Shown piece after piece: positions 2,286 to 63,746 of a DNA stretch of 64,000 nucleotides. Position numbers and translations under genes: made by a program. Source of the DNA: Sialis fuliginosa. Its lineage: Eukaryota > Arthropoda > Insecta > Megaloptera > Sialidae. The number at the start of each line of letters is the position of its first letter. Positions within the stretch are counted from its first letter, which is position 1. The notes beneath the pieces were generated by a model. The model had not been told where the DNA came from, did no database searches, and was given only the letters and a program-made list of their open reading frames with translations. Location of the stretch: positions 4,280,501 through 4,344,500 of the forward strand of contig OY540822.1 in assembly GCA_961205875.1 (NCBI GenBank), read 5' to 3'.

Positions 2286-3410
2286 ATACTGATGATAATG
2301 ACAATAATGATTGCCTGATTTGTGACAAAATTGGATCTAGTTCAGAATCAAACTCTGATTTAGGAAAAATTGTAAAAGTAACAAGAGGAATATCAACGCT
2401 GAAAGCTGCTTCTGCAGAAAGAGCAGATGGGCTGTCTCAGTATTTAAATACTCGCGAATTTGTCTACGTGCATTCAGTATGCAGACAAAAATATATTAAT
2501 AAAGGATGTATTCATTCTTATTTTAAAAAAAAGAACACCACATCTCCTCCTAAAAAAAAGCTTCGAACGGCTACTTCAATTGACTTCGATTGGAAAAGTA
2601 GGTGTTTTATCTGTGAAAAGGAAGCGGATGAAATGAAGGAAATAAGAATGAGCAAATCGTTGAGACAAAAAATCAGCCATGTAACTACCTCTGATTTCAA
2701 GGAAAGCATTTTAAATTGAATAAGTCATGAGAAAAGTGAATGTTGTCGCAATATTCATAAAAAAATTGTAGGCGTGGTGGATTTAGTGGCTCAGGGAGCT
2801 AAATATCACGTGGATTGTTATACAAATTTAAAAAGTAGTATAAAATCGACTCAGAGGGAGAAAAAACTTTCTCCTGTAACAATACAAGTAGACGTAGCAA
2901 TTATCAAGGAAAGACAAAATTATTCCTTTATTGGCTTCCACTAGCAAAGTCAAAGTGGATGAAGATAATATTCCATTGATCCACTACTGTTATTTCAGCG
3001 TATTTGCGTGTTAAAAAATCGGATAAAGAACTCAAAAACTACATGACTTTTGAATTAGCTCCTTATTCTCTTGCTCTTATTGAAGATGGTGAAATGCAAA
3101 AAACAACAAAATCTACATTTTATGACCTATTCCCAGAAGTTACGGTGAATGTGAATGATATACAAAAATTTCCCTACATAACTGATGGAGGAATGTTACT
3201 ACACCGTTGCAAGTGGCAACTGGATGAAAATTTCGGCACTATTTGTGAACACTATGTCAGATATTTACATAACAATTATGGACACAATATTTATGTCGTA
3301 TTTGATGGCTATAAAAAGAACAGCACAAAATCAATGGAAAGAACGCGTCGCTGTAAAAATAAGTCATGTATGAATGCCAAAAATAAGAGTGTGCACACTG
3401 CAGCACAACA
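2246..3410 (+). pseudogene. Academ-like transposase/nuclease, decayed copy, 5' half
   Basis: This is a relative of the large intact protein at 30818-35260. Residues from about 2270 match its N-terminal zinc modules: CLICDK, then VHSVCRQKY, then CFICEKEADE. A frame change near 2719 leads into a stretch containing YHVDCYTN, the second HxxC. Near 2970 the frame jumps to sequence matching position ~1010 of the intact protein (DPLLLFQRI, then YMTFELAPYSLALI). It reads on through TDGGMLLHRCKW and VVFDGYK, the start of the XPG/FEN-like nuclease domain. The whole transposase core, roughly residues 230-1010, is therefore deleted. The frame dies near 3410, where repeat copy B begins. The 3' half of the gene resumes at 10078. 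At least two frameshifts plus the deletion make this copy dead. Confidence 0.8.
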
Positions 3411-3417
3411 AAAGAAT

Positions 3418-3836
3418 TGTCTCTTGTTATTTTGCATAGAACAACAGGTGAGGGGATTTTGGCCAAGTTTCCCTTCAACTATGTCTGAATTAAACACTAT
3501 ACGGAGCCCTTAGGAAGTTGGTGGAGGAACTTGTACTCATTAGCAGAGAAAGACAGTGAAACTAACATTAATTAGTATTTAAATCAAAAACAGAGTGGTT
3601 TTATAGTTTAACTTCCCTCTAATTAGTGGAGCGCCGTAAGATTTATACCTCGGAATCCAGGGCCAGTCAATGAATCTTTATGAAACCTTTTGGATTGTGT
3701 TTTTAACACTAAATAGAAAAAAGTCAAAAAAAATATTTTGCACGGTCTCAATTTTTTATTTATTAAATAAATAATTATTAATTTTTCGGAGTTTTCATTT
3801 ATTTTCTATGAAAAACTCGATTTTTTTCTGTTTTAA
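3418..3836. repeat. Dispersed repeat, copy B
   Basis: Same unit as copies A (1517) and C (7157), entered at TTGTCTCTTGTTATTTTGCA. It interrupts the nuclease domain of the decayed transposase gene. Differences from A are scattered single bases. Confidence 0.75.
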
Positions 3837-4046
3837 AGCGGTAGACCACCCTAGAATTTTTTGAAAATCGAATTTTTTTAAGTGCCCGAATATTGAATGT
3901 TACGCGGGCCTCATTAAGCGTGGTGAGAACAAGTTATTAAAGAAATATTGTGTTAGTGAAGTGTTATCGTTATTTTGTTCATATTGTTAATATTAATGTA
4001 ATGTTGTAAATCTGAGGTGCAATTTACAGAGAGCAGCAAGAGAGGA
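3837..4046. repeat. Second repeat unit, short version
   Basis: Matches 7769-8045 from GCGGTAGACCACCC to GAGCAGCAAGAGAGG but lacks about 70 internal bases (the block beginning TTTGGCTTAAAGAG at 7809). In the 7769 copy it leads straight into the Mutator-like coding fragment, so it is probably that element's 5' region. Confidence 0.7.
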
Positions 4047-7066: not shown

Positions 7067-7156
7067 TACTAATATGTCATTAATTCATGTTGCCTTGGAA
7101 ACAAATGCAACTAAATTCAAATTGTCAAATTAGTTTTTCTACGAATGTGAAAATAT

Positions 7157-7682
7157 AATTTATTTAAATTTTCGTGCGGATTGTCTCTTGTAATTTTGCA
7201 TAGAACAACAGGTGAGGGGATTTTGGCCAAGTTTCCCTTCAACTATGTCTGAATTAAACACTATACGGAGCCCTTAGGAAGTTGGCGGAGGAACTTGTAC
7301 TCATTAGTAGAGAAAGACAGTGAAACCAACATTAATTAGTATTTAAATCAAAAACAGAGTGGTTTTATAGTTTAACTTCCCTCTAATTAGTAGAGCGCCG
7401 TAAGATTTATACCTCGGAATCCAGGGCCAGTCAATGAATCTTTATGAAACCTTTTGGATTGTGTTTTTAACACTAAATAGAAAAAAGTTAAAAACCATAT
7501 TTTGCACAGTTTTCATTTATTTTCTATGAAAAACTCGATTTTTTTCTGTTTTACGTTATATTTTGGAAAGGAGAACTATTAAAAACTTGTCCTTGGTGTC
7601 TCAAGGGACCACAGGTACAAAGGTAAGAGGGAATTATAGAAGGGACAACAGCAGCTATTGGCGCCGTCCCTAACAGCATACT
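7157..7682. repeat. Dispersed repeat, copy C
   Basis: Third copy of the unit at 1517 and 3418, entered at TAATTTATTTAAATTTTCG. It lacks an internal AT block of about 50 bp present in copy A near 1868-1915 and ends at the same GGCGCCGTCCCTAACAGCAT. A partial re-run of the missing block follows at 7690-7765. Confidence 0.75.
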
Positions 7683-7768
7683 TTTATTTAGGTATTAAAT
7701 AAATAATTATTAATTTTTCGGAGTTTTCATTTATTTTCTATGAAGAACTCGATTTTTTTCTGTTTTAA

Positions 7769-8045
7769 GGCGGTAGACCACCCTAGAATTTTTTGAAAAT
7801 CGAATTTTTTTTTGGCTTAAAGAGTCTTTTAATATCTCAAAAATATCCTGTAAAAATTTCAACCGTGGGTCTAGTCTCTAAGTGCCCGAATATTGAATGT
7901 TACGCGGGCCTCATTAAGCGTGGTGAGAACAAGTTATTAAAGAAATATTGTGTTAGTGAAGTGTTATCGTTATTTTGTTCATATTGTTAATATTAATGTA
8001 ATGTTGTAAATCTGAGGTGCAGTTTACAGAGAGCAGCAAGAGAGG
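7769..8045. repeat. Second repeat unit, long version (Mutator 5' region?)
   Basis: Full version of the unit at 3837-4046. It ends in GAGCAGCAAGAGAGG and passes directly into Mutator-like coding sequence. The ORF at 7793-7990 inside it is not convincing as a gene. Confidence 0.55.
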
Positions 8046-10077: not shown

Positions 10078-10703
10078 TTGCATTTTCACATTGATGTGGA
10101 TGTTTTAGTTTTATTGACTGCGCTCTCACCAACAGATCGAGAAATTTATTTTCGAAAACCAGTTAAAGGCAAAATACCACAAAAAGTATACTTTTCAAAG
10201 AGCTTGGAAACAGTATTACCAAAATGTAACAACATATCCTGTTCTTACATGCTTTCACTGGCTGTGACACGACGTCCGTTTTTTTCCAACGTGGCAAAAA
10301 TGTGTTTGCAAAAAATTTCGAGAAACGTCTGGTCTTGCAAAACGCTGCGACAGTTTTCGAAAATGAATGCAACGATACCAATGACATTTTTAACGCTGGA
10401 GTTACATGCACCGCTTTATACGCTGCCCCTCAAAAAATAAAAGATCTAAATATATTAAGATATAACTCTTTTATAAAAGCAACTGCTAAAAATAGCTGCG
10501 TTAAACTGCCGTCTTTGCCACCTACTGCAGATGCCGCTCTTGGACACTTCAAAAGAGTATATCTGCAAATTCAAACGTGGCTTGGAAGAAAAATGTCACC
10601 AGAACAATGGGGTTGGAAATATGAATGCGGAATACTGACACCGCAAACAATGACGCAGCTACCAACTCCAGAATCTTTATTAAAAATCATAAGGGAAAAA
10701 TAA
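10078..10703 (+). pseudogene. Academ-like transposase/nuclease, decayed copy, 3' half
   Basis: Continues the gene broken at 3410. The first piece matches the intact protein (30818-35260) from its GEDIDLLVIL motif (here HIDVDVLVLL) through the EIYFRK and KVYFSKS blocks. A frame change near 10240 brings in the GCDTTS nuclease motif. From 10302 the frame reads to 10703 with LPSLPPTADAALGHFKRVY and QTWLGRKMSPEQWGWKYE, matching the region before the C-terminal Cys cluster. The Cys cluster itself and about 70 residues around the insertion point are missing. It is a pseudogene, and the homology to the intact copy is clear over most of its length. Confidence 0.8.
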
Positions 10704-29813: not shown

Positions 29814-30035
29814 AGTAAGGCGCAATCCAACGTGCAAGGTGCAAGCAGCCACAGTAAGGCGCAATCCAACGTGCAAGGTGCAAGCAGCCACAGTAAGGCG
29901 CCCTCCAACGTGCAAGGTGCAAGCAGCCACAGTAAGGCGCCCTCCCACGTGCAAGGTGCAAGCAGCCACAGTAAGGCGCAATACAACGTGCAAGTGGCAA
30001 GCAATCATAGTACGGCGCATTCCGACGTACAAGGT
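29814..30035. repeat. 39-bp minisatellite, about six copies
   Basis: The unit starts AGTAAGGCGCAATCCAACGT, period exactly 39, with copies at 29814, 29853, 29892, 29931, 29970 and a truncated one at 30009. The first four are nearly identical and the last two diverge. Open frames on both strands are only a consequence of 39 being divisible by three. The array is cut off on its right by the element starting at 30039. Confidence 0.95.
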
Positions 30036-30038
30036 ATT

Positions 30039-33000
30039 TAGCCCAGTCATATTAGGTAAAAAAAGGGGTCAACCTCGGAATGAAAGATAATAAGCTGCAA
30101 ATTGGTATGAACCTTTGTTTTGTCATTCTAAATGTTGTCTCAAAAGTCACAATCGTTATCGTGTCCGCGTCTCAAGATATTCAAGGTCAAAGGTCACAAA
30201 AATCGGTTTTTCGCGAATATCTGGCTTCCTATCGGTTAAATGAGATTTGCATTTATTATAAAAGTTGTAGACTATAAAATTCCCTACAACTTTTGTTTAA
30301 ACTTTTTTTTCATACGACCAACCGTTTTGAAGGTAGAGCGCGAAGAGTGCACATCGTACAGTCATATACGGCCTAATGCAAGGTCAAGCGTGAGTTATGG
30401 TTATCAGTACGTTATAAAGTCAATTATTTACTTGGAAATTATAATTATTAAACAATGCCTATTATTTATGTACTAACTATTAATTATTTATATTTAATTA
30501 AAGTAAGTAACTTGATTATTTATATATAATTATTCATATTTAACTATTTAAGTATAAAATATTATTAATTCTGGATTATATATTTTAGTTTTATTTTAAG
30601 TTAACACGACATTATATATCTTTTCTTTAAAACGCGTAAATTTCTCAATACTTATATACCTGGAAATACTTGTCCCTACCCTATGCCCTTTTCTATTCAT
30701 TGCCGGGACAGATGTTCTATAGTATTCAAGGCCACTCTCTCCACTTTGTATGAGTCAAGATTATTCGTTAGTTTGAAATTGTACCGTTGCAACTACGGAC
30801 GTACGGTTTTAAGAGCTATGGCTGATTTGTGTTTTATATGTGATAAGAAACTTTCAGAAGGTGTTTCTGTGAATGTCGTACGTGGTTTACAAACTTTAAA
30901 AACTGCAAGTATTGAAAGAAATGATGGACATATAGACTATTTAAATACTTTAAGTTCTGTAAATGTGCATTCCGAGTGTCGAAAAGTGTACACGAGTAAA
31001 AATGTTATTATTGCATCAAAACGACGCACAGATGAGAGTGAACCTTCAACGTCAAGTGCACCTCGTAAAAAACGAAATGAAGTCTTTGATTTTGGAAAGT
31101 TATGCTTATTTTGTGGCCAAGAAGCTGATGAAATAGCAGAAAAGAAAAAAAAATTAAAGTATAGACGGACAATAAGTAATGTAAGTACTCTTGCATTCAA
31201 AGACAACGTAATTAAGAGAGCAGAAGAACGAAACGATTCCTTAGGAGAATTAGTAAAGGAACGTATATATTACGAGTATGATTTGATCGCTGCTGAAGCA
31301 AAGTATCATACTATTTGCTATACCAACTTTTTAACCCGAGTACCATCTGCAGATAAAAAGCCTCGCCAAGATGATCAAGTCACTCAAGCAATGAAGGAGA
31401 TTTTTTATTATATAGAAAATAATGAAGATTCTCAATTTACTTTGAAAGAACTTAAAGATGTCCCTACGGAATACATACCTGACGATAAGACAATTATTAC
31501 AAAATTACAACAAAAGTATTTAACTGATATAATAATCACAAAAAAAATTGGATCATTTACAATTATATCTTTCCGTGATACACAGCTTAACGTATTATCA
31601 AAAGCTTGGTACGAAAATAAAAAAAGTACTCCTGTAGAAGAACGTCTACGGATTGTAGAAGCTGCTGCGGCTATTATTAGGGAAGACATCAGATCATCTG
31701 TAGTTGAAACAAAAACGTATCCACCTCCGAATAAAATGCTAGATTGTATTAATGAAGAAATACCAAAAACATTATCACATTTTTTGGAAGAAATGATATT
31801 AAAAAATAGAAAAGGACAAGTAGATCATTTAAAAACGAAATGCACATCTATTAGCCACGCAATAATGGCTTCGATACGAGAACGTTCATTTTCATCACAG
31901 CTACTGTTGGGCCTTTCCGTATTTCTTCACAGAAGATATGGGTCTAAAAAATTGTTGGATGTTTTATCATCTTTAGGATTTGCTGCATCATATAGTAATA
32001 CCATACAGTATGAAGTTTCATCAGTTTACCATCCACAACCTCGTATTTTACCATCAGAGTCTGGTGCGTTGGTACAATATGTTGGAGACAATGCAGATAT
32101 TAATGTCAGTACTCTTGACGGTAATAATACTCTTCACGTTATGGGAATGATAAAAATAATTACTCCGAAAGATGCTGTAATTTATGATGATCGCATAAAA
32201 AAATGTACAACTAAACCGAGTGCAAAAGAGTTAGCAGCAATATCACATGTATCTCTTTTAGCATATGAAAAGCCAGTTGTACCTGGGTACAGCAAGATTC
32301 AAGTCCAAAATCTACATGATGATCAAGTACTGATTGAAAAAAAATTTAATGCAGTTGATTTGTTGTGGTTATACGGAAAATGGAAGAATCTTTCACCGTT
32401 GCCAGGGTGGAATGGCTATCTTCAACAACTTACGAAAAATAATCAAAATTTTTCAACTTCTCAGGTTATATTTCTACCTTTCATTGATCATCCTGCCAGT
32501 AATTTAGACACAATTTATACAACTTTACATAGTGCTATAAATATTGCCAAGTCACATCAACAAAAAACGTGCATAATTACATTTGATCAGCCCCTGTACT
32601 CAAAAGCACGTGAAATGGTTGCTGCGTCAGATGCAAACTCAGACTTGTCTAAAACAGTTGTCAAACTTGGAGGATTTCATATGCTCATGTCTTTTCTTGG
32701 ATGCATAGGACATGTAATGGACGGTAGTGGTCTCAAGGAAGCTTTAAGTAAAATATATGCTACAAATTCGGTCGACAAAATGTTGAATGGTCACGCTTAT
32801 GCAAGAAGTATCAGAGGCCATATATTATTACGACTTGCATTATCAATAAAGATTTTTGAAGAGATGAAAATTGAAAATTGTGTGTTAGATGAGTTAATTG
32901 AACAGATAACTAGTCGCGATGTTTCCTACGAAGATGTTGAAGGATGTACGAGCAGCTCCAACTCGTTAATTGATCAATTTCAGGATAAACTAAAAGAATT

Positions 33001-35955
33001 AAAAGCTCGAGGTCCCACGGCACAGTTATGGGTGCAATATTTTGAAATGGTATCAATAGCCCTAGATTTCATTCGCGCTGAAAGGCTGGGACTTTTTCAA
33101 GAACATTTGGATGCAGTGCGAAAAATGCTGCCCTATTTTCATGCTGGTGGTCATTTCCTATATGCGAAATCAGCTCATTTGTATCTTCAAGATATGTTAA
33201 AACTTGAGGAGACAATGGATCAACAGGCTTTTGAGAACTTTAAAAACGGATTCTTTACTGTAAAACGAACAGAAAAATTCAATTCTGGTACATGGACAGA
33301 CATGGTAATCGAGCAAAGTCTGATGAAATCTATGAAGACAGAAGGAGGAGTATCTCGAGGCCGAAGTACACAAGAAAGTGTTCTATGTAAGTGGGTATAT
33401 GCTATGTATGCCACGAATACAATTTGTGAAGAAATTGAACGGTTTTGTAACATTTCTTTCGATTCTGTGGACCAACATGTTGATGCTAGAGATTCACGAA
33501 TAAAAAGGGATGATACTGATGTAAATGAACTGGTTGGTTGGTTTACGCTTCATAATCCCTTTCCAAATACGAATCAGTTGGTATCCTTAGCTTCAGGAAT
33601 CGTTGGAAATGACCAAATTAATTGTCACCGAGCCCATGAAATCGGATTGCAATCTATGGTAAAGATAACTGGTTTGAACTTCAACGAAATAAAGTTAAAA
33701 CGCGTCGATAAGGTTTTACCGCTTTCAGCCATTAACAAATCTGTCAAAATTAATGATTGTAAAGTTTCTATAGATCCAATGTTACTTTTCCAGAGAATAA
33801 CTGTAAGCAAAAAATTTGAAAGTAATTTACAAGAATATCTTCAGTATGAACTAAGCCCGTATCCGACATCTTTATTTGATAGTAATGGCATGAGAAAAAC
33901 CACGAAAGCAACATTATATGACAATATGATGCCTGTCGTTATCGATCTTGATGAAAATAATGTAACATACATCATCGATGGTGGATTTCTTCTGCATCGC
34001 GTCGTATGGAGCAAAGACGATACTTTCTCTATTATTTTAAATAAGTACATTAAATATTTACAAACACATTATGGCTCAGCAATTGTTGTTGTATTTGACG
34101 GATATTCGGACTATAGTAAAAATATTAAAGCACTGGAACAACAAAGAAGAACTGCTGCACTTTCAAAATCATATGAAGTTTGTTTTGACGAAACAATGGT
34201 TGTGCCAATCAGTCAAGAAAAATTTTTATCAAATCGGTCTAATAAAAAAAAATTTATCGACATGCTTGTTGAAAAATTTAAAACTGTTAATATCACAACA
34301 AAACAAGCCAGAGATGATGCTGATGTTCTCATCATTGACACAGCTATTGCCTTATCAGAACATCAAAAGACTGCTGTCATCATAGGAGAAGATATCGATT
34401 TGCTCGTTATTTTAATTGGACGTACTCAGTCACATCATCAGGAAATTTTTTTGAAAAAAGTTGGCAAAGGCAATGTCAAAACACAAATATATTCTACTAA
34501 AAGTTTTGACCAATATCCTCGTACTAAAAAGCACATTTTATTTTTACACGCACTCAGTGGCTGTGACACGACTTCTGCGCTATTTAAAAAAGGAAAAAAA
34601 ACTGTTACTAGAGCATTGGAAAAAATTCCTGATTTAGATAAACTGGTGGAAGTATTTCAACAAGAAAACTGCCCAAAACAAACATTATTAGAAAATGGAG
34701 TGCGCATCTTGTTGGCATTATATAATGCTCCAAAATCTGAGGACAACATTGATCATTTCCGCTACACGCAATTCATCAAATTTACAAAACTAAATAAACC
34801 TGTACAACTGTCAACACTTCCACCAACAAGTGTAGCAGCTCATCAACACATAAAACGTGTCTACTACCAGATTCAAACGTGGTTAGGGAAGGACTTAGAA
34901 CCTCAAGAATGGGGCTGGATGCTTGAAAATGAAATCCTGGAGCCCATACGAACGTTATTACCTCCAGCACCAGCCGAACTACTAAACGTAATATTTTGCA
35001 ATTGCAAAAATGGTTGTGGTTCCCGCTGTGGATGCAGAAAATCAGGGCTACAATGTTCTTTAGCTTGCGGCCAGTGCAACGGACAAGCTTGCCTCAACGC
35101 TTCACTGTATCCAAGTAATCCCGATGAAGAAAATACATATGATCCCGATATTCTGGAAGGTTTGGAGATGAACATGACAGATAATGAGGATGATGACAAT
35201 GAATCGAACATTTTTGAGCGACAAGAAGAAGAAGACGACGAACAAGAAGAAGATAATTAGCTTCCATTTCCAATTTCATTACAATTAAAATCAACAAAGA
35301 TACTTTTGATATTTGAACTCACATTTTGATAAATGTATATTATGCCGTATTTAATAATAAATAAAAATATGTGTAAAATATATACTCTTACTATCATTTT
35401 AACTTAAAATAAAACTAAAATATATAATCCAGAATTAATAATATTTTATACTTAAATAGTTAAATATGAATAATTATATATAAATAATCAAGTTACTTAC
35501 TTTAATTAAATATAAATAATTAATAGTTAGTACATAAATAATAGGCATTGTTTAATAATTATAATTTCCAAGTAAATAATTGACTTTATAACGTACTGAT
35601 AACCATAACTCACGCTTGACCTTGCATTAGGCCGTATATGACTGTACGATGTGCACTCTTCGCGCTCTACCTTCAAAACGGTTGGTCGTATGAAAAAAAA
35701 GTTTAAACAAAAGTTGTAGGGAATTTTATAGCCTACAACTTTTATAATAAATGCAAATCTTATTTAACCGATAGGAAGCCAGATATTCGCGAAAAACCGA
35801 TTTTTGTGACCTTTGACCTTGAATATCTTGAGACGCGGACACGATAACGATTGTGACTTTTGAGACAACATTTAGAATGACAAAACAAAGGTTCATACCA
35901 ATTTGCAGCTTATTATCTTTCATTCCGAGGTGAAAGCCCTAATATGACTGGGCTA
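30039..35955 (+). mobile_element. Academ-like DNA transposon, apparently intact
   Basis: 5,917 bp. Terminal inverted repeats begin TAGCCCAGTCATATTAGG at 30039 and end with its inverse at 35955. The left arm reaches 30602 (564 bp) and the right arm starts at 35401 (555 bp). The 9-bp length difference comes from one indel about 20 bp inside the tips, and otherwise the arms differ by only a few bases. The flanks carry a 3-bp duplication, ATT (30036-30038 and 35956-35958). One gene of about 4.4 kb fills the space between. Near-identical arms and an open gene indicate a recent insertion. Academ assignment is inference from protein architecture (XPG-like nuclease plus Cys cluster) and short target duplication, as I recall the superfamily. 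Confidence 0.85.
30818..35260 (+). CDS. Academ-like transposase with XPG/FEN-like nuclease domain, 1,480 aa
   Basis: ATG 30818 is preferred over the upstream in-frame ATG 30683, because the zinc module begins here (MADLCFICDKK) and the decayed copy at 2246 aligns from this point. Two N-terminal CxxC...HxxC modules (CFICDK...VHSEC; CLFCGQ...YHTIC) span residues 5-170. A core at about 570-800 contains ITFDQPLYSKAREMV, LGGFHMLMSFLGCIGHVM, GHAYARSIRGHILL and MLPYFHAGGHFLY; I take this as the transposase. From about 1020, YIIDGGFLLHR, VVFDGYS, ARDDADVLIIDTA, IIGEDIDLLVIL and LHALSGCDTTSAL follow the order of acidic motifs in XPG/FEN nucleases. A Cys-rich cluster (CNCKNGCGSRCGC to CNGQAC, about 1393-1426) and an acidic tail end the protein. 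There is no stop or frameshift. The core's catalytic residues are not assigned. Confidence 0.88.
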   Translation: MADLCFICDKKLSEGVSVNVVRGLQTLKTASIERNDGHIDYLNTLSSVNVHSECRKVYTSKNVIIASKRRTDESEPSTSSAPRKKRNEVFDFGKLCLFCGQEADEIAEKKKKLKYRRTISNVSTLAFKDNVIKRAEERNDSLGELVKERIYYEYDLIAAEAKYHTICYTNFLTRVPSADKKPRQDDQVTQAMKEIFYYIENNEDSQFTLKELKDVPTEYIPDDKTIITKLQQKYLTDIIITKKIGSFTIISFRDTQLNVLSKAWYENKKSTPVEERLRIVEAAAAIIREDIRSSVVETKTYPPPNKMLDCINEEIPKTLSHFLEEMILKNRKGQVDHLKTKCTSISHAIMASIRERSFSSQLLLGLSVFLHRRYGSKKLLDVLSSLGFAASYSNTIQYEVSSVYHPQPRILPSESGALVQYVGDNADINVSTLDGNNTLHVMGMIKIITPKDAVIYDDRIKKCTTKPSAKELAAISHVSLLAYEKPVVPGYSKIQVQNLHDDQVLIEKKFNAVDLLWLYGKWKNLSPLPGWNGYLQQLTKNNQNFSTSQVIFLPFIDHPASNLDTIYTTLHSAINIAKSHQQKTCIITFDQPLYSKAREMVAASDANSDLSKTVVKLGGFHMLMSFLGCIGHVMDGSGLKEALSKIYATNSVDKMLNGHAYARSIRGHILLRLALSIKIFEEMKIENCVLDELIEQITSRDVSYEDVEGCTSSSNSLIDQFQDKLKELKARGPTAQLWVQYFEMVSIALDFIRAERLGLFQEHLDAVRKMLPYFHAGGHFLYAKSAHLYLQDMLKLEETMDQQAFENFKNGFFTVKRTEKFNSGTWTDMVIEQSLMKSMKTEGGVSRGRSTQESVLCKWVYAMYATNTICEEIERFCNISFDSVDQHVDARDSRIKRDDTDVNELVGWFTLHNPFPNTNQLVSLASGIVGNDQINCHRAHEIGLQSMVKITGLNFNEIKLKRVDKVLPLSAINKSVKINDCKVSIDPMLLFQRITVSKKFESNLQEYLQYELSPYPTSLFDSNGMRKTTKATLYDNMMPVVIDLDENNVTYIIDGGFLLHRVVWSKDDTFSIILNKYIKYLQTHYGSAIVVVFDGYSDYSKNIKALEQQRRTAALSKSYEVCFDETMVVPISQEKFLSNRSNKKKFIDMLVEKFKTVNITTKQARDDADVLIIDTAIALSEHQKTAVIIGEDIDLLVILIGRTQSHHQEIFLKKVGKGNVKTQIYSTKSFDQYPRTKKHILFLHALSGCDTTSALFKKGKKTVTRALEKIPDLDKLVEVFQQENCPKQTLLENGVRILLALYNAPKSEDNIDHFRYTQFIKFTKLNKPVQLSTLPPTSVAAHQHIKRVYYQIQTWLGKDLEPQEWGWMLENEILEPIRTLLPPAPAELLNVIFCNCKNGCGSRCGCRKSGLQCSLACGQCNGQACLNASLYPSNPDEENTYDPDILEGLEMNMTDNEDDDNESNIFERQEEEDDEQEEDN

Positions 35956-35972
35956 ATTAATTACAATAAGCA

Positions 35973-36480
35973 ATTGATTGCCTGCTAGTATCAACAACTA
36001 GCTCAATCATTCTATCACTATATAAATGCTAGTATCATCTACTAGCTGTGTCAAGAATCACTTGATTATCTGCTAGTATCAACTACTGGCTCAATCATTT
36101 GATCAATAAATCACTAAATCAAGAATCACTTGATTATCTGCTAGTATCAACTACTGGCTCAATCATTTGATCAATAAATCACTAAATCAAGAATCACTTG
36201 ATTATCTGCTAATATCAACTACTGGCTCAATCATTTGATCAATAAATCACTCAATCAAGAATCACTTGATTATCTGCTAGTATCAACTTCTGGCTCAATC
36301 ATTTGATCAATAAATCACTAAATCAAGAATCACTTGATTATCTGCTAGTATCAACTACTGGCTCAATCATTTGATCAATAAATCACTGCCAGTATCAACT
36401 ACTGGCCCTGTATCTGGATTCAACTCCTGGCTCAGTAACTGGATCAGTAATCGCCTGCTGGTATCAACTACGAGCTCGGT
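35973..36480. repeat. 68-bp tandem array
   Basis: The unit starts CTGCTAGTATCAACTACTGG, with near-perfect copies at 36070, 36138, 36206, 36274 and 36342 (period 68). Degenerate, partly deleted units lie on both sides (35973-36069 and 36388-36480). It begins within 20 bp of the right end of the Academ-like element. Confidence 0.95.
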
Positions 36481-57621: not shown

Positions 57622-58895
57622 AGGTTTCCGTAGAAAACTAGGAAACCTTATAGTTTCGCCATGTCCGCCCGTCCGTCCGTCCGTCCGTCCTCAAAAATTT
57701 TAAGCCGATTAAGATGAAATTTGGTGTACATACGAAGACTGATAACCCAAAAACAGAAATGATAATATTTTTGAATAAAACATTTTTTTGACCCCCTTTC
57801 CATAGACTGAAAACTATTTTCAAAAAAAATTTTTCACTTAATACATTAAGTGGGATGTCTTTAGATAGGTCTCCTAAAATGCAATAAAAAATGCAATATG
57901 ACATTTTAATTTTAACCCTTCAGTCACGATATATTTGCGTTCAAAGTCGTGATAAAAGCGTCCCCCCCCCCTAATTTCTAAACTATCAATTTAAAAAATC
58001 TGAAAAAATTCATGAATGTAGCCTTTAATTAGTACTTCCACTGAAAATAATAACGAACACTGTCAAAAATATTTTGGACCCCCCCTCCCATAGACTGAAA
58101 AGTGAACTCACAATTTTTTTTTCACATATTCCATTGAGTGGGGGGTCATTGGATAGGTCTCCTAAAATGCAACAAAAAATGTTAAATGACCTTTTGATTT
58201 TAACCCTTCAGTCACGATATATTTGCATTTAAATGTCGTTATCAGAGCGTCCCCCCCCCCTTAATTTCTAAACTATCTTATCAAAAAATCTGAAAAAAAT
58301 TTAGAATGTAGCTTTGAATTAGTACTTCCACTGAAAATTATAACGAACACTCTCAAAATTATTTTGGACCCCCTTCCCATAGACTGAAAAATGAACTCAC
58401 ATTTTTTTTTACTTAACCCATTGAGTGGGTGGTCATTGGATAGGTCTCCTAAAATGCAACAAATAATGTTAAATGATCTTTTGATTTTAACCCTTCACTC
58501 AAGATATATTTGCATTTAAATGTCGTTATCAGAGCGTCCCCCCACCCTAATTTCTAAACTATCTATTCAAAAAATCTGAAAAAAATCAGAATGTAGCTTT
58601 GAATTAGTACTTTCACTGAAAATTATAACGAACACTATCAAAATTATTTTGGACCCCCTCCCATAGACTGAAAATTGTACTCAAATTTTTTTTCACTTAC
58701 CCCATTGAGTTGGGTATCTTTAGATAGGTCTCCTAAAATACAACAAAAAATGTTATATGATATTTTGATTTTAACCCTTCAGTCACGATATATTTGCATT
58801 TAAATGTCGTTATCAGAGCGTCCGTTGAAATAACTCTTGTTTATAAATCGTAATGACTACGGAAACCTATCATGTGCGTGCCCAACACGCACTTG
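57622..58895. mobile_element. Helentron-like non-autonomous element (HINE-type)
   Basis: It interrupts the Gypsy integrase. The left edge carries TAGGTTTCCGTAG (57621-57633), whose exact inverse CTACGGAAACCTA lies near the other side (58857-58869). The right edge continues with a 7-bp perfect hairpin, GTGCGTG-CCCAA-CACGCAC, about 10 bp before integrase sequence resumes. Between them are a CCGTCCGTCCG microsatellite and a 280-290-bp tandem array. A short inverted pair near both ends, internal tandem repeats and a 3' hairpin are the layout described for Helentron-associated elements (the DINE-1 group). The assignment is inference. Confidence 0.55.
57700..58830. repeat. Tandem array, period about 284-289 bp
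   Basis: The landmark AACCCTTCAGTCACGATATA recurs at 57913, 58202, 58489 and 58773. Each unit holds a poly-C tract, TTTCTAAACTATC, ATAACGAACACT and CCCATAGACTGAAAA. There are about 3.5 units, with the first truncated and most diverged. It lies wholly inside the insert at 57622. Confidence 0.9.
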
Positions 58896-62319: not shown

Positions 62320-63746
62320 TCACAGACTAGTGTTACAATACAAAATAGGATATATATTTGTTTTCCAGAAAATAGCAAACTTTTTGATTAAGTTATTAAC
62401 ATAATCACTATCATATGTCACTAAAATAATGTCTACATTCTTTGTTTCTTCAAAGTTGCAATCAGCAACACAAAAATAGCATTTTTTTACACCAGTTGCA
62501 TACATTTGCAGTTGCACCTGTGCCTTATATTTTTCTGTGATAACACCATTTTTTGAATAATGGTTCTTGGTTTTTGCCTTGGTAGGACATTTTATTTCAA
62601 TAACGGCATCTTTCATTAAACCATCAGGAGACGCCGCAATCATGGGATTTTCTTGGCATACATAAAGCCCACATGAAGTGATTTTTGATTTTAATTTCTT
62701 ACCAACTGTCTTTCGGACGGATAATTCCAAATTTCGACCTCTTTTCACTGCAGCTGTATCAGGTATTTTTGCACCCATTATAGTAGCCACCAACGAACCA
62801 TCTGGTGTATGACAAATACTTAGTTCATGTGCCTTTGAAGCTGTGATACGGCCATATCGCATCTCATACCACAAGCTGCTCTTGTTCTGCCGCCTTGTTG
62901 CTTCTTCGATGGTACTTATCACAGCTTCAGTGAATGTTGCTTTCATCATGTCTACAAGCTTGTCTACATCTGCTTTAATTTCTGGGGATTTGTCGATTAT
63001 AAAACAGTGCAAGGAATACTGCATCACATCATTATGTTTAAAATCATGCTGATATTTTAGCAATTCACAGTTGTCAATTTTTCTTTTTTTGCTTTCTGAA
63101 ATAAATTCAAGATAAAGTGCTGATGTACTCGGTTTGTGCGGTACTTCTTTTTTCGACATTTGCTGCACAGTAATGTACTTCAGAGTAGTCCCTACTCTGG
63201 ACAAAGTAGACTTTTTCCAATAGCACTCTATTGATGTACATGCAGGTTCCTCACTGCGACGATGGACCCACATCAAAAACCAAACGCAATGCTTGCATCC
63301 GCCAGCTGAAGCAGCACAGTCGTGACACTGACAGCTAATAATTTCACTGTCATTTTCGTTTATAATCATAGTTACATTATATGCTTTGGTTCTTACATTA
63401 TGCTCTGGGCACATTTTACACTTAACTGTGCAAACCCCATGCTCTCGGTGTAGTTGGACGTAGCCAATAGCATCGTCTCCATAGGATTCCCTTGCAGACC
63501 TGTGAAACAAAAGCAAAGACCATGACAAAGAGAACTTGCATGAAATTTCTGAGATTTTACAAAAGTTCTGAATGATCATACATAAAGGTTTGTAAATAAA
63601 TAATTCCTGTGGTACTTACACTGCTGTTTTCACATTTTTAAGTTCCGCAGCATAGTAATCAGCGTTATTCTTAAAAAAAGTGCAACCATAAATGCGTCTA
63701 CCTTAGGTAGGTTACTGTTATCAGCTGCAACAAAATTTGATTCCAT
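62320..63746 (-). pseudogene. ISL2EU-associated YqaJ nuclease with SWIM finger, two exons
   Basis: Exon 1, 63746-63620, starts MESNFVAADNSNLPKVDAF and ends at a GTAAGT donor. Exon 2 is 63499-62320 with acceptor TTTCACAG. The joined product would be about 435 residues. A SWIM-type finger (CQCHDCAASAGGCKHC) is at about residue 100. The YqaJ exonuclease domain follows: SLWYEMRYGRITASKAHEL, ENPMIAASPDGLM, AVIEIKCPTKA and YKAQVQLQMYATG, the conserved PD-(D/E)xK-type Asp, Glu-x-Lys and QxQ residues. The only lesion seen is in exon 1: the T-run after GCAC is one base short, shifting frame before NNADYYAAELKNVKTA. Exon 2 is fully open. The role in transposition is unknown; phage YqaJ relatives are recombination exonucleases. 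Confidence 0.85.

Follow-up and report, generated by a model that had tools for sequence, protein, structure and literature searches.

A probable AcademX-type transposon, apparently complete, in Sialis fuliginosa that joins a predicted DDE transposase core to a predicted XPG-family nuclease

Academ transposons are counted among the DDD/E superfamilies (PMC9587614). Two lineages are described: AcademX, with 3-4-bp target-site duplications and a nuclease, and AcademH, with 9-10-bp duplications and a helicase (PMC10045372). A bivalve study gives 5,565 bp as the mean length of its curated Academ elements (PMC10294476), and recently active, horizontally transferred Academ has been reported from Lepidoptera and parasitoid wasps (Zhang et al. 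2016, cited in PMC5704228). Here we analysed a stretch of 64,000 nucleotides from Sialis fuliginosa (contig OY540822.1, positions 4,280,501 to 4,344,500), hereafter the window, which holds at its positions 30039-35955 a 5,917-bp element. This is very probably an apparently complete, recently mobile and autonomous AcademX-type transposon, for whose nuclease we propose a role on the 5' strand; the AcademX identity, compared by published description, is much firmer than that role. The Academ type is already known, if little studied, and the interest of the element lies mainly in its being a well-formed test object for mechanism, a specific and apparently intact copy with which to ask why a transposase carries an XPG-type nuclease.

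The element starts with TAGCCCAGTC and ends with GACTGGGCTA, its tips reading TAGCCCAG...CTGGGCTA. Alignment of the arms delimited a left terminal inverted repeat of 576 bp on the forward strand (30039-30614, first letters TAGCCCAGTC) and a right one of 567 bp on the reverse strand (35389-35955). Both arms consist of an identical 18-bp tip, a divergent subterminal patch of 15 nt on the left (30057-30071, forward strand) opposite 6 nt on the right (35932-35937), and 543 bp with two mismatches; a repeat search of the window recovered the same 543-nt inverted pair at 99% identity. An earlier sequence-only reading had described nearly identical arms of 564 and 555 bp, of which the near-identity holds and the lengths are revised here. 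A search of the 64-kb window that allowed up to three mismatches recovered the 18-bp tip just twice, once at each end of the element, and 100 shuffles contained none. The clean ATT duplication described in the same reading is present at 30036-30038 and 35956-35958 (no strand assigned), directly abutting the tips.

The patch right after the 18-bp tip is the sole sizeable difference between the arms, and the left and right ends are therefore spaced differently. Each arm also contains a perfect AGGTCA-A-AGGTCA direct repeat (30184-30196 and 35807-35819), which has the consensus sequence of DR1-type nuclear-receptor sites, with a further CAAGGTCA approximately 200 bp inward. These direct repeats could be a site for the transposase or a host factor. 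A single independent occurrence, when so many motifs are possible, is no proof of this. Tandem arrays flank the element, with a 39-bp unit on the left (29814-30035) and 44/68-bp units on the right (35983-36390).

A single transposase-nuclease frame of 1,480 codons plus stop, the codon count given in the sequence-only reading, runs along the forward strand (30818-35260). It is open upstream of 30818 as far as 30683, and the start was set at 30818 to agree with the first residue of the relative P0001. Without a stop, the element can be read for 1,551 codons at most, whereas no stop-free stretch exceeded 191 codons in 200 mononucleotide shuffles. Relatives of the encoded protein were obtained from a search of approximately 5.8 billion proteins, which gave 81 matches, and from a second search with residues 390-900 of the divergent relative P0041 as query, which gave 378 matches, the best 120 of which were used. 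The 170 proteins from both searches were aligned together with the window protein, and 126 of the resulting 171 sequences have at least 1,300 aa. Hosts among the matches listed include butterflies, moths, beetles, aphids and wasps, as well as an ant, a mayfly, a sea spider, a clam and a soft coral. Among viral contigs, five pattern matches were found, none of which encodes a relative. Of the 126 long sequences, 115 retain an intact core together with an intact nuclease.

The transposase core (31799-33433, forward strand, residues 328-872) is predicted to be of the RNase H-type DDE fold with a helical insertion. When structures were compared with VIA-align, the first 12 of 50 rows were DDE transposases or RAG1, and Transib, Hermes and RAG1 are all present among the rows; the nearest core by structure is that of the P element, at 10% identity only. 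The predicted core thus puts the element structurally near the P element, Transib, hAT (Hermes) and RAG1. Membership of the P superfamily itself was considered and rejected: the duplication here is 3 bp, there is no Pfam match, and the likeness to P-element transposase is one of fold alone. P elements make 8-bp duplications and are not known to carry a fused nuclease. The candidate catalytic residues D427 (32096), D590 (32585) and E755 (33080) are kept in all rows of a 34-row alignment and in 124 of the 126 long sequences, the other two being gapped. Because D424, D828 and E832 are likewise invariant in the 34 rows, the catalytic three are residues that we infer.

The same core may account for a Pfam family of the DUF class. 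PF20231 (DUF6589) matched 12 of 32 relatives at E ≤0.1, with a best value of 4.2e-8, and did not match the window protein. P0089 scored 32.7 bits over residues 542-801, above the curated cut-off of 27, and P0040 and P0041 fell slightly below the cut-off. In the four relatives checked (P0035, P0040, P0041 and P0089), the matching stretch spans the GGFH motif and the region of the conserved final Glu. From these sequence matches we infer that DUF6589 corresponds, wholly or partly, to the transposase core described here, which would suggest a function for the family; no mention of DUF6589 was found in the open-licence literature searched.

The C-terminal part of the protein (33902-34903, forward strand, residues 1029-1362) is predicted to belong to the XPG/FEN family of nucleases. 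Its closest fold is EXO1 (Z 17.1), followed by FEN1 (Z 15.7), and EXO1 is also the sole credible sequence match in the PDB for the nuclease, human EXO1 being approximately 14% identical to the domain. Human EXO1 is a repair protein, whereas the nuclease here is one domain of a transposase. The acids of the XPG/FEN N and I regions and the Gly-Cys-Asp motif that follows them are present, with acidic residues at D1054, D1094, D1167, D1169, D1192, D1194 and D1250. In the 34-row alignment, the nuclease positions are each lost in one row at most, position 1167 being D (26) or E (7). The seven acids are kept in 115 of the 126 long sequences (7 gapped, 4 substituted).

Further conserved modules lie on either side of these two domains. 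Two C-x2-C ... H-x2-C modules (30830-31318, forward strand, residues 5-54 and 96-167), probably zinc modules, are conserved in the 34-row alignment in 31-33 rows per position for the first and in all 34 for the second; among the 126 long sequences, the first is kept in 99 (26 gapped, 1 substituted) and the second in 115 (11 gapped). A possible winged-helix domain follows on the forward strand (31370-31576, residues 185-253). After the nuclease comes a Cys-rich cluster (34997-35098, forward strand) with nine Cys in residues 1394-1427, which are conserved among relatives and kept in 103 of the 126 (19 gapped, 4 substituted). Seven relatives (P0003, P0007, P0025, P0030, P0039, P0084 and P0101) carry the database name Tesmin/TSO1-like CXC domain; because Pfam gave no match to the cluster in the window protein or 32 relatives, the CXC name rests on those labels. 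Other CXC proteins bind DNA, and by analogy the cluster may do so as well. The sequence-only reading had proposed zinc modules, a transposase-like core, a C-terminal XPG/FEN nuclease with the motifs IIDGG, DDADVLIID, GEDIDLLVI and LSGCDTTSA, and a Cys-rich cluster; all four motifs are present, and this reading is supported.

Pfam returned no family for the window protein, a PDB search with the single window-protein sequence returned no match, and Rfam returned none in the window at gathering scores. NCBIfam gave 12 families among the 32 relatives, none of them in more than one protein (best E 0.00088). DNA polymerase I and two flap endonucleases were among these families, as were others that are plainly unrelated.

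Several features place the element with AcademX: a 3-bp duplication, a nuclease and a transposase in one frame, a DDE core and terminal inverted repeats. The nuclease of AcademX is of the XPG type. By the published description (PMC10045372), AcademX and this element both have a transposase plus a nuclease and the short duplication, no difference was found, and the Academ-like name given in the sequence-only reading is supported. The length of 5,917 bp is close to the mean given in the bivalve study. A 3-bp duplication by itself is weak evidence, with a chance of 1/64, and a single copy was examined; it still counts because it adjoins both tips exactly. Foldseek alone gave weak results for the DDE core.

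AcademH was considered and rejected as an identity, since that lineage has a helicase and 9-10-bp duplications, whereas this element has a nuclease and a 3-bp duplication. Pfam found no helicase in the window protein, a weak test given that Pfam misses the nuclease too. No helicase-bearing relative was reached, PF20231, PF03564 and PF24664 being the only precomputed Pfam accessions among the best 120 of the 378 matches. That the element instead belongs to an undescribed superfamily outside Academ, in which a DDE core and an XPG-type nuclease were joined independently, strikes us as extremely unlikely. Pfam found no named transposase in the window protein or in 32 relatives, and the likeness to Academ was drawn from descriptions, not reference sequences, both of which would suit such an origin; however, the nuclease, the duplication length and the element size all fit the published description of Academ and AcademX.

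Movement of the element appears to have been recent. Over residues 1-1144, only two positions separate the window protein from P0002 of E. editha, which near residue 1145 passes into another frame. Broken copies thus exist, and the window copy might likewise be dead or domesticated, its mobility gone; we consider this unlikely in view of the full frame, all candidate catalytic residues, the intact tips and the near-identical arms. Programmed frameshifting at the E. editha shift point was also considered and rejected, since the window and P0001 read straight through. P0027 of Arctia plantaginis comes from a composite gene model; its two matching blocks total 510 residues, of which 2 differ from the window protein. 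Both P0002 and P0027 lie on contigs of at least 5 Mb, which argues against simple contamination.

These relationships were placed on a tree of 29 rows and 615 core columns. The window is identical there to E. editha, Arctia joins them (100/98), followed by the beetle Brassicogethes and P0001 (100/100); we think that the long branch of Arctia is due to its composite gene model. The Lepidoptera label is unclustered on the tree (6 changes, compared to a shuffled mean of 5.7), and holding the Lepidoptera together, with the window counted as one of them, was rejected (p-AU 5.1e-6), a rejection that alone could stem from old paralogous families. One beetle protein matches a wasp protein at 93% identity across 524 residues. 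On these comparisons, all made on proteins, horizontal transfer between hosts is the likeliest explanation. The near-identity across two lepidopteran families and the 93% identity between beetle and wasp add to the case for horizontal spread, and the Academ reported from Lepidoptera and parasitoid wasps has the same superfamily name, the same kind of hosts and reported horizontal transfer.

From the observed frame, conserved residues, ends and duplication, and from the predicted folds, the following mechanism can be proposed. The N-terminal modules and the CXC cluster would bind the long arms, the possible winged helix would also help bind the element ends, and the DDE core would cut the 3' ends and join them at positions 3 bp apart. 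Processing of the non-transferred 5' strand would fall to the nuclease, which might release this strand from the donor DNA or else trim a 5' flap after joining. The substrates of XPG-family enzymes such as FEN1 and EXO1 are 5' ends in branched or recessed DNA, at junctions of single and double strands. In such a reaction it is the non-transferred strand that carries the element's 5' ends, and this role is therefore the most economical guess; we hold it tentatively, at somewhat less than even chances.

Two other uses of the nuclease were weighed. It could resect the 5' strands of the donor break as EXO1 does, with copying from the sister or homologue then restoring the element and raising its copy number. 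EXO1 is the nearest fold and the one credible sequence match, and a nuclease fused to the transposase would presumably be carried to the donor break; however, the Z score of FEN1 is only 1.4 below that of EXO1, and the fold does not separate exonuclease from flap activity, so that resection seems to us improbable. Alternatively, the nuclease could open hairpins made by the Academ core. Transib, Hermes and RAG1, which make hairpin intermediates, are among the structural rows, and one Transib and one RAG entry title name a hairpin forming complex; however, the nearest core is that of the P element, which is not known to make hairpins, and hairpin opening is not known as a usual reaction of the XPG family, making this use very unlikely.

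If processing of the 5' strand is the role of the nuclease, one eukaryotic polypeptide might combine two unrelated active sites, a DDE core for the 3' strands and an EXO1/FEN-type enzyme for the 5' strands, the accessory enzyme setting the duplication length, a broader idea that we regard as doubtful. Were it true, the element would be a self-contained analogue of Tn7 TnsA/TnsB, and whether a lineage of Academ makes short or long duplications would depend on its nuclease or helicase. Tn7 works in a way similar to the division proposed here, with one nuclease per strand, and no homology is claimed; TnsA is a restriction-type nuclease and a separate protein.

Elsewhere in the window, positions 2312-3351 and 10230-10691 contain the remains of a second, different Academ-type protein, the only other one present. 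Its main pieces are 35-45% identical and cover residues 5-183, 959-1111 and 1238-1392, with a stop, frame changes and interruption by other repeats. Repeat pieces in and around this broken copy lie at 1516-2089, 3416-4045 and 7153-8045, the longer pairs being 90-99% identical. The region 5042-63576 is rich in other mobile-element genes (10 frames scanned, one of them without a match). Matches in these frames were weak ones to DUF4371 (hAT-like), DDE_Tnp_4, DDE_Tnp_1_7 (piggyBac type) and a Tc3-type HTH, and a YqaJ/alkaline-exonuclease frame is located at 62320-63576. A protein search with this last frame gave 353 matches; among the 120 listed, identity reached 89% (Parnassius mnemosyne, covering 58% of the query), and further close matches came from Lepidoptera and beetles. 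Lastly, a tandem array at 57785-58823 has a period of 284 bp and 3.6 copies.
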